Source of the DNA: Paramecium tetraurelia
Lineage: Eukaryota; Ciliophora; Oligohymenophorea; Peniculida; Parameciidae
Length of the DNA stretch: 64,000 nt
Reading direction: 5' to 3'
Assembly (NCBI RefSeq): GCF_000165425.1
Contig: NW_001799647.1
Span: 62,001 to 126,000 of the forward strand
The notes beneath the pieces are model-generated. The model worked only from the letters and a program-made list of their open reading frames with translations, was not told the origin of the DNA and made no database searches. Numbering within the stretch: the stretch's first letter is position 1; each line of letters begins with the position of its first letter. A program made the translations under genes and the position numbers. Positions 2,743 through 60,116 of the stretch are shown one piece after another.

Positions 2743-5700
2743 ATGTTTTGTTATTTCTTCATACTCTACTTGATTTAGATATGCGCATATAAGATAATGG
2801 AAAATGAAATTTCATTGTATCCAACAGTAGGAGAATACTACGAATATGACTTGTTTTAGATTATGTATTAAGATGCATATATTGTGTATGAAAAAGGAGA
2901 ATAATATTATGAATAATAAAATATGAATAAGAGAGTATACGTAAATTATGAATAAAGATGGATGTAGAGACCTAAAATTGGAAATGTAGATATTGTTAAT
3001 CAGTTTTAAGAAATTAATAGTATAAGTGGAAATTGTATATAATTATTATTATTATTATAGAATATAAATCATTATCATCTAATAATACTCATTTTGGTAC
3101 TTTATCAATGGAAAATGAAGTAATAATATATGAATGGCACAATTAAATACTTTAATAAATTGGATCATCTGTATAGATAGATACTTCATTTATTTGTTTC
3201 AATATTCATTTATCTCCATTTTTTGATATTTTGGTTGATTGCTATTAAGATGATGAATTTAAATTATTGATTGTTTAGGATTAATAATACAATACTGTAT
3301 GTACATCATAATCATCTATACCTATTAAAACCAAACTCAAATCAATGATAAATGATAATAATGATACTTATATAATATATGCTTAATATTATCAAGATTA
3401 CTGTATGCTCTCATTATTTTCAAAATAGTATTCAAATTTAAGTTAATGGAATAACAACTTTATAGATTTTGATATACCAATTAGAATAAATCCTTACATT
3501 TATATACTCACTTAACAACAGATCCTATAATGTACTATTTCTTCAAATTAAACTTTTTAACTTCAATATAATTTCACATAACCTAACATCTCCAATTTTC
3601 TTACTATCAATCTTTATTACACCATTTCGACTTATTCTTAATGTGATCAAATATTACTATAATACCCATCAGATTCTGGAGAAGAATTTTTGATAACTTC
3701 CTTTTGGGGGTGTACAAACTAAATTATAATAAAGAATATCGATAATCAATACTAATTTAATGAAGCAATTTAAACAATAGTTTAGAACAACTAGTATATA
3801 ATATTTTAATAAAAACAAATAATACATCTTTACTAAATTGGAAAACCAGTAGTCTTCTAATATAATAATAAAATTGAAACCAATTCCCTATTATACTTTA
3901 ATTTTGATAATGAATTATTTTCATTTAATGAGATGATAATTGCTTATAAGATTTAAATTCCATCGTTAAAGATCAACCTAACTAACGTATAAGTTCAAGG
4001 GAACAATTCTCATTTCTCTATAGTGTGTTTTAATTAAAAGAAGCCCCAAAACTAAAATATTTTAAAAATTAATCTCACGATATTGCCTAAGAATGATACG
4101 AATATTTATGTAATGTTCAATTAGAGTATTCCTTAGTACTAATATGCAATCATGAATAATATTAACACAAATTTTTTCAGCTTCTCAGGACCTTTCTTAA
4201 AATTTTAATAAAATAATGATACAGACTATTTTTCGTTTAGTTCAACAACTTTTACTGAGATTGGTAGTTTGAGTTATTATTATTTAGTTTCATAACTCTC
4301 AATAATGTAAAATATTTCAGAAACCTTATTATATTTCATTGGGTACAATAAATCATAACTTTAGATATTTTATTGCTCTAAGTATCCTTAGCAATCTAAA
4401 TTAAGTTATTAAAATTTAAATGTAATCTAAATTTCTGTTAACGCAACTTCCCTCTAAACTGCTTATAGTATATACCCTGAGATTCTAATAATTGGACTTA
4501 GTGATAATTAGACAATCTATTTATATTAATAACAATATGAAGTTAAAGGCGCTTATAGTAATTCAAATTAAACATTTGAATAAGAAATCTTAAATTTTTT
4601 GGTAACCTAAAATAATATTGTAATTCTATTTAGCAATTATGAAATTTCAATAATGACATTAGATTTTGAAAATATCTTAGACTTAAATTAGGAGTAAATC
4701 AATTAACTTTTTAAAACCAAAACCATTTAATTCAACCCTTAATAGATTGTTATGAATACACAATTATAATCATCCTTCTTATTTATAAATAATATTTATG
4801 ATGTTATCATAATTTCATTACAATAAAATAGCAAGCCGATCCCAATTTAATTGATTTAAGTGAATTTTGCAATTAAGCAAATTAATTTAGTTAACTAATA
4901 ACTAATTTTATCTTATATTTGCAACAATAATTAGTCTATTTGTTTTCAAGTTTGGAACGTTTAAAATTTACCTAAATATTATTATGAGAAGAATCTTTGT
5001 GAAGTTGATAATGGTAATAACGTGACTATATAATCAGATAATTTGTTCTTTTATGTCACTTTTACTAATCACACTGTTTACATCTATAATCCTTCATTAC
5101 CATATCATATGAGTTTATATTTTAAAACAATATTAAGTTCAATAAATAGTATTGCTTTTTAAAACTAAAATTCATTATTATTCAATTAATCAATTATTTT
5201 TGGGTAAAACACATTTTATTCACTTACTTAAACTTAAGGAATGATGATATCATATATGTAAAGCAATCAATATAATTTTACTTACCCATAAACTATTTAT
5301 AATTACTCTGTAACTTCTGCATTAAATCCATTAGCCATATAGAGAACTCCTAATTAAAGTATTACTTACTTAACAAATTTCACTGTAATTAAAAATAAAA
5401 CTATTTCTATTAATCTAACTCTTGATTAATAAGATAATCGCAATAATCATTTTTCATATCCAATCAATATAATTGTTGATAGATAATTCAATTCCTGCTA
5501 ACTGTTCTACAATATTAGTAATCTAAATTCTATTGATATTTTATAAGTTTAATAATTGATAGCGAAGGGTTGTGTTATTACTGAATATAAATATACTTAT
5601 AATAATTTAATAAATTTTAGTTAAGATTTGGCACATTCGTTAATAATAACTTCAATAAATAACTAGTTTGTTTCCTTACTGAATAACACTGTAATTATAA

Positions 5701-58944: not shown

Positions 58945-59409
58945 ATGAATCAAAGTTAATATCAAGTTGCCTTTAAAAACTATTGGTGTCATCTATGTTA
59001 AAAGGAATCACATTATCGTTTAGAGGGTGAATTAATAAATTCAGAATAATTCTGTTAAAATTGTGGATGTGTTTTAGAACAAATAGTTACCAAACAATAT
59101 CATCCCAAACAATTCTAAGTCTATCAATAACCAGTAAGATTACAGAGAGTGTATTATCACATAATTTTCTATTAAAATAATGACGATGAACATTAAAATA
59201 ATGGAGCCACTGAAGATCAAATTAAAAACATGAAGAGATAAACCCATGAAGGGGAACAGGAGCAGACTTGTTACATCTGTCAAGATGATTTCAAAAATGG
59301 AGAGTAAATTGCCATGATGAATTGTAATCATGGTTTCCATGAGGATTGCATTGCAAAATGGTTGAGAATGAACAATTCTTGTCCAGTTTGCAGATGTAAA
59401 CAAAATTGA
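58945..59409 (+). CDS. RING-H2 finger protein, probable E3 ubiquitin ligase, 154 aa
   Basis: Intronless, 155 codons from ATG 58945 to TGA 59407-59409. The C-terminus is a canonical RING-H2: [19 protein letters not shown], then [20 protein letters not shown] and CR, with the Cys/His ligands complete. The N-terminal part has extra CxxC pairs (YWCHLC; FCQNCGC) resembling the small zinc ribbon found in RNF115/126-type ligases. It is soluble, without membrane segments. Confidence 0.88.
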
Positions 59410-59471
59410 TTAATCTTTGTTATGTGTTTTACTTCTCTTATTATTAGCAGTAAAATATAAATATATTAACA

Positions 59472-60116
59472 TCATTCATATAAATGCAATGATCTGCATT
59501 CATCATCAGTGTATTATTGTTTAACATTTTTAAGAAAGTCATAAATTAATTGATTTTCTGACTATTCAGTGTTGGTTTTAGTTGGAATTAGAAGTTCGTT
59601 TTTTAGTATTTCAATTTCATCTTCTTTCCCTTTCAATTCTTTCTAGAGCAACATTATTTAGTTGGAGAAGATCTCTGCCTATTGCAATAGTAGGTAGGCA
59701 TCTTAATATTGAAATTGCAGATTTTTATGTTAACTTGACAATTCCTCGATATATTAGATCATCTTATTATTTTAGTATGTTCGATCTATCAAAGCCTATT
59801 TGAGGGATTGTTATTCTTATTGCATATTGGCTATTTGCTAATTTAACTGTTGAGTTTCATATTAAAATTATAACTGTTACTATTGTAAAGCAGAACGCAA
59901 TTTATTATTTTCGTCTTTCAATTGCTCAATAAGTTAATGCAACTTTTAGATTTCTTGTTACTCATCAGTTAATGTTTTTTGTTTTTCTATGGGTTCGAAT
60001 GTTCTTTCTAGGGGTTGTTTCAAAGTTGAAAAGTAAGTGTTTGGAATGTGATATTAGGAACATTTGCGTAAAGGAGAGGGTGTGCATTTTTTATCAGAAA
60101 CAGTCTTATAAAACAT
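59472..60116 (-). CDS. Coiled-coil protein, 214 aa
   Basis: Intronless frame of 215 codons from ATG 60114-60116 to TGA 59472-59474. A Pro/Lys-containing start of about 50 residues leads into a Gln/Leu/Glu/Lys coiled coil (for example IQKLHQLIEQLKDENNKLRS). No other feature. It is divergent from the large secreted-protein gene, whose ATG lies only 6 bases away. Confidence 0.7.

Follow-up and report, generated by a model that had tools for sequence, protein, structure and literature searches.

The near-identical inverted repeat in this stretch of Paramecium tetraurelia DNA is best explained by ectopic gene conversion within a family of membrane-protein genes, a reading that we would give about four chances in five. 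An intact gene, A, and a pseudogene, B, would be old inverted paralogs on the same chromosome, separated by ~19 kb. B would have lost its function, with an internal deletion of ~1.3 kb and a 3' part that drifted to ~65% identity, and sequence from A would later have overwritten the 5' 0.8 kb of B by non-allelic conversion, most probably in the germline micronucleus. On its 3' side, the conversion would have ended where the deletion in B stops the homology. Since then, B would have lost 14 nt and acquired a few clustered changes, and a single substitution would have arisen in A. Related inverted genes on C218, the WGD-partner contig, appear to have undergone the same type of exchange, pointing to repeated, patchy conversion of the 5' module of the family, and B most likely no longer has a function and is a relic whose similarity to A has been maintained by conversion. 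The tract, the remnant, the collinearity, and the C218 patchwork are observed; the direction of the conversion, the nucleus in which it took place, and the loss of function in B are inferred. The window, the whole 64-kb stretch analyzed here, corresponds to C228:62001-126000 (29% GC) in an assembly of 69.07 Mb and 231 contigs. Its GC content, the use of ciliate code 6, a tiny intron, and paired collinear contigs are what a member of the P. aurelia group would show. Window coordinates carry the prefix w, and the features are collected in Table 1.

Table 1. Features of the A/B locus and of the related genes on C218
Feature	Position	Strand	Remarks
Gene A, parent	w2743-6902	+	ATG w2743, TGA w6902; 26-nt intron; 1377 aa, code 6
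Intron of gene A	w3035-3060	+	26 nt, inside arm A, identical in B
Arm A	w2859-3668	+	near-identical tract (BLASTN); 5' coding part of gene A with intron
14 nt of A absent from B	w2908-2921	+	
Clustered A/B change	w3476-3486	+	extra C in B next to 3476; substitutions at 3480, 3484, 3486
Arm B	w22629-23425	-	near-identical tract of pseudogene B (BLASTN, difference list); frame broken
3' remnant of pseudogene B	w22042-22628	-	collinear with A from ~w4977 on
F-box gene	w20635-22036	+	transcribed towards B; two overlapping frames, joined by inference
WD40 gene	w23663-25609	-	upstream of B, same strand; Pfam WD40 1.4e-14
P55	C218 ~54.5-58.4 kb	-	family copy
P73	C218 ~72.8-76.8 kb	+	family copy
P98 (L013)	C218 ~98.0-101.7 kb	-	full-length family copy
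P120 (L015)	C218 ~120.4-124.4 kb	+	full-length family copy

Gene A is intact: once the intron is removed, translation runs to a single terminal stop. Judged by eye, the protein begins with a hydrophobic, signal-peptide-like stretch and has a membrane span at its C terminus. It contains 40 N-glycosylation motifs (sequons) with a large sequon-rich part, and 24 cysteines among its 1377 residues; a Pfam search with the exon-2 frame gave no family at threshold (best E, 0.79). The family occupies at least 12 further places in the genome, according to a search whose 24 matches include A and B and in some cases are pieces of one gene. Used as a DNA query, the arm-A tract has at least seven places in the genome (A, B, four on C218, and one on C22), and all those found belong to this membrane-protein family, which speaks against a mobile element.

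The preliminary description had reported an inverted, nearly identical pair about 19 kb apart, and both the self-BLASTN of the window and the alignment of the two arms bear this out, with a small correction of its ends (3665 and 22632 are each 3 nt short of the BLASTN ends, 3668 and 22629). At E ≤ 1e-5, it is the sole repeat pair in the window besides the self-match. The arms are 97.3% identical over 811 columns, with 7 mismatches and two gaps of 14 nt and 1 nt, and with gap columns excluded 789 of 796 aligned bases are identical. Apart from the cluster listed in Table 1, the substitutions (A/B, in A coordinates) are T/C at 2878, C/T at 2940, G/A at 3301, and C/A at 3666, the last at the tract edge. 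The 14-nt deletion and the one-base insertion that had been ascribed to the copy are both seen in the list of A/B differences, and together they break the frame of arm B. Because five other copies of the family carry 11 of the 14 columns, the longer gap is a deletion in B, and a 9-nt direct repeat noted there by eye, TATGAATAA, suggests slippage as its origin. The intron likewise lies within the duplicated segment, as had been stated; its retention in B, identical over all 26 nt, rules out a processed pseudogene or retrocopy.

The copy does sit in a spacer, between the end of the F-box frame (~w22036, plus strand) and that of the WD40 gene (w23663, minus strand). Besides the 0.8-kb tract, this spacer contains the remainder of B in decayed form, a part that the preliminary description overlooked. 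The remnant aligns from w22578 down to 22042 (22027 with a longer query) with A w5063-5619, at 343 identities in 530 aligned bases (~65%) and with local alignment scores of 115 and 121.5. The stretch w22613-22536 is matched at the protein level as well, and the first nucleotides past the junction are matched by eye only. What is deleted from B is the interior of the gene, A w3669 to ~4976.

Several comparisons address how far such a match exceeds the background. The score of 115 between the 592-nt flank and A was reached by none of 1044 background windows drawn from the same contigs under three of four scoring schemes, by one of the 1044 under the fourth, and by none of 84 GC-matched windows under any of the four. 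When C228 was tiled in 280 windows (both strands, gene A excluded), the flank window scored 121.5 against A and was surpassed only by the two windows of the tract. The first 125 nt of the flank scored 56 against A w4900-5299, with 0 of 500 shuffles as good; when A was divided into 19 stretches of 400 nt, the 17 that do not contain the homologous place scored 39.5 or less against them. For the first 140 nt, P73, P98, and P120, three of the five other copies, have their best local match at the homologous place, with scores within the shuffle range. By eye, the remnant peptides YYYKK, DEVDN-NNITI, and HTVYFYNP correspond to YYYEK, CEVDNGNNVTI, and HTVYIYNP in A. A tblastn search of the A protein against the flank gave a collinear match at E = 0.002 (composition correction off) and a non-collinear rival at E = 0.003, so that the protein-level evidence by itself is weak. 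The nhmmer results speak against the remnant: gene A alone did not find it, and a family profile gave E = 7.2 there. The alignment and the background comparisons indicate that B is probably an old pseudogene that has lost ~1.3 kb from its interior, and in which only the 5' 0.8 kb is almost exactly like A.

Across the junction, identity drops from 99% in the tract to ~65% in the remnant, and the tract ends sharply. This juxtaposition excludes a single duplication as the source of both parts and implies that the 5' part was renewed later; a step of this kind is a hallmark of gene conversion. The competing history is a recent partial inverted duplication, in which 0.8 kb of A was copied once into the spacer with no conversion. 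It would account for the high identity and the sharp ends, and it is in keeping with the 5' side of B, where we found no clear remnant of A (11, 59, and 124 of 500 shuffles were as good for 80, 120, and 160 nt), so that diverged homology flanking the tract is recognizable on the 3' side only. Against it, a decayed, collinear part of gene A continues from the 3' end of the copy, and a fresh insert would have had to land in register and in orientation beside the old remnant of its own parent. Moreover, recent single-gene duplications are reported to be rare in P. aurelia, with a median of 28 per genome (PMC10195154). We therefore regard this history as unlikely. The preliminary description had left a choice between recent duplication and ongoing homogenization; the old ~65% remnant of the same gene 3' of the copy leaves the former unsupported, and this remnant, together with the same patchwork in the relatives on C218, speaks for the latter.

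The direction of the conversion can be approached through the other copies of the family. At w3486 all five agree with A, and at w3480 four of five do, so B would have changed at both sites; at w3301 B shares A with the five other copies and gene A carries G, which places this substitution in gene A. The remaining substitutions (w3484, 2878, 2940, and 3666) have no polarity. The polarized differences thus fit a transfer of sequence from A to B by conversion, after which both copies mutated. Dividing the three to four lone substitutions in ~790 sites by the published rate per site and division (1.94 to 2.44 x 10^-11; PMC11334263), we place the last exchange roughly 10^8 cell divisions ago. By our own calculation, a divergence of this size is within expectation for large Paramecium populations.

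These differences also bear on the idea that B is an assembly artefact, with A copied there by a faulty join. Near identity over a tract longer than a short read is what such an error would give. B nevertheless carries a deletion, an insertion, and substitutions that are not in A, the decayed flank next to it is unique, its base at w3301 is that of the five other copies and not that of A, and a similar pair is present on C218. An artefact is thus very improbable.

The setting of the pair can be compared with C218, which, in reverse, is collinear with the 43-100 kb region of C228; the flanking blocks are 69-85% identical, with most of the longest at 81-85%. The four family copies on C218 alternate in orientation (- + - +) at a spacing of ~18-25 kb, among genes collinear with C228. 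On the collinear map, gene A corresponds to P98 in both place and orientation. Their identity, 46-71% in most 200-column windows, is below that of the flanking blocks, so the sequences do not show that A and P98 are simple ohnologs. Collinear blocks on either side of A and B, and those lying between them, have the same orientation relative to C218; recombination between the arms that inverts the 19-kb segment was considered on this basis, and no net inversion was seen.

B lies within C228 81186-87668, and the C218 counterpart of this interval, 66737-77386, holds the full-length P73 in matching orientation. This positional match suggests that the inverted pair is older than the WGD. By rough arithmetic, in which 8.6 kb of two eligible intervals is divided by ~52 kb and multiplied by one half for orientation, such a match would arise by chance with a probability of ~8%. 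The whole flank of B scored no better than shuffles against 13 other family copies or loci, so B would descend from the line of A or have once been fully homogenized with it, and the match with P73 could be the coincidence (~0.08) just calculated. For the two remaining C218 copies, sliding local alignment over the corresponding sites of C228 revealed no convincing relic, and tblastx gave weak matches only. The beta-lactamase-like, F-box, and WD40 genes of C228 81186-87668 have no counterpart above the search threshold in the 90 kb of C218 that were compared. Other local repeats of 89-91% identity occur on C218, away from the family matches (67479-68290 with 70964-71785, and 59271-59807 with 92142-92673).

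The C218 genes P98 and P120 show the same kind of patchwork as A and B. They lie in opposite orientations, their 5' segments 18.7 kb apart, and in the segment that matches the A/B tract (A w3030-3600) they are identical at 546 of 565 sites (96.6%), compared with 78.2-83.9% for the other nine pairs among the five copies. In the next segment they fall to 429 of 762 (56.3%), and further on they agree at 194 of 194 sites. The low 56.3% is due to P120, which differs from every copy there (51.7-57.3% against each of the four others, which range from 65.7 to 77.0% among themselves). In both copies, gene sequence extends beyond the tract on the 3' side, and on the 5' side identity falls to 45-66%. Examined in finer windows, the two genes share at least two near-identical tracts, one of ~0.5 kb at 96-100% (100-column windows) and one of 395 nt at 97.7%; the segments separating these are as low as 48-65%. 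P98 and P120 are mosaic genes, whichever way the mosaic arose. Pairs of at least 200 nt and at least 93% identity, counted separately inside 84 kb of C228, 90 kb of C218, and 20 kb of C22, number two, and both belong to this family. In both A/B and P98/P120, then, a sub-genic, near-identical tract with sharp ends lies in otherwise diverged paralogs. A run-based permutation test was significant in 15 of 15 pairs and, being so unspecific, does not separate conversion from uneven conservation. If the same 5' module has been exchanged in both pairs, the simplest reason would be that the members are still similar enough there to recombine.

Gene conversion as a process is known in Paramecium. It is reported to be widespread between WGD paralogs of the P. 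aurelia complex (PMC11334263; PMC10195154), where sequence copied between paralogs makes them look younger than their duplication (PMC10195154, PMC5485702, PMC11334263). A and B share this property and differ in that the partners lie on one chromosome, inverted and 19 kb apart, one of them a pseudogene, and in that the tract covers 0.8 kb, only part of a gene, and stops at the deletion of the partner. Paramecium surface antigens are cysteine-rich, GPI-anchored proteins; gene A is set apart from their isogenes by an exon-2 frame with no Pfam match, 24 cysteines, and a C-terminal membrane span. The likeness lies in genomic organization: most of those isogenes, which encode large proteins of the cell surface, are described as having arisen by duplication within a chromosome, and a pseudogene has been reported among them (PMC9788069). 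Searches of the open-licence PMC literature turned up no title or abstract opening that describes the A/B locus. A resolved intrachromosomal, inverted conversion with a pseudogene partner would be a new and useful example: the tract ends are visible, the dead partner bears marker mutations, and the WGD-partner chromosome has a parallel case. It also cautions against taking high identity between local repeats in genomes of this kind as proof of a recent duplication.

B may also have a role in gene silencing. As a natural truncated gene, it would give rise to transcripts from which 23-nt siRNAs are made that silence or tune A, a proposal that we consider distinctly unlikely and that could be compatible with the conversion history. 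B is truncated at both its 5' and its 3' ends and keeps a long identity to an intact gene; in being a truncated homolog of a full-length gene, it resembles the truncated transgenes that silence homologous loci in trans through the RDR3 pathway in P. tetraurelia, with accumulation of siRNAs (PMC4937312). The same source reports secondary siRNAs even at ~2x the endogenous copy number, and its authors propose that pseudogenes could act like truncated transgenes. B differs from these in being a natural, single-locus pseudogene, and the transgenes as reported had their own promoter, whereas the start region of B is not recognizable. In P. tetraurelia serotype 51A, small-RNA clusters are reported at 117 of 2435 predicted pseudogenes (~5%), leaving ~95% without a cluster (PMC6735861). 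Pseudogene-triggered silencing in this species is thus plausible, credible but not usual. The sense strand of B folded no better than shuffles (z = -0.26), trans duplexes being outside the reach of this test.

A read-through hairpin joining both arms, as the preliminary description proposed, is unlikely: it would need one ~20-kb transcript across several genes, and 3' UTRs in P. tetraurelia are reported to average 44.6 nt (PMC5485702). RNA antisense to A made by way of the F-box gene would require ~0.6 kb of read-through. Slightly less likely than silencing by B as such is a coupling of the two processes, in which the 5' 0.8 kb of B, kept matched to A by recurrent conversion, supplies siRNAs that tune A, with the exchange of the 5' module on C218 as a parallel. 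If this were true, B would be a pseudogene regulator maintained by gene conversion; in any case, it offers a concrete natural locus for the proposal of pseudogene-triggered silencing in trans.

Around B, the F-box gene has a Pfam F-box-like match (1.1e-8) on w20635-21633 only, and beside it lies a gene with a beta-lactamase domain (w19443-20609; Pfam PF00144, 2.6e-28). Rfam gave no match at the gathering score in the window, and ARAGORN, run with the bacterial code, found no tRNA in it; the promoter and terminator scan of the B spacer used bacterial models, which are uninformative for a ciliate. At the other end of the pair, the start region of gene A (w2829-2906) contains a short near-repeat 66 nt apart, AGGAGAATACTA at 2829 and AGGAGAATAATA at 2895, and by eye the extra repeat unit appears to distinguish gene A from the C218 copies, from which it is seemingly missing.
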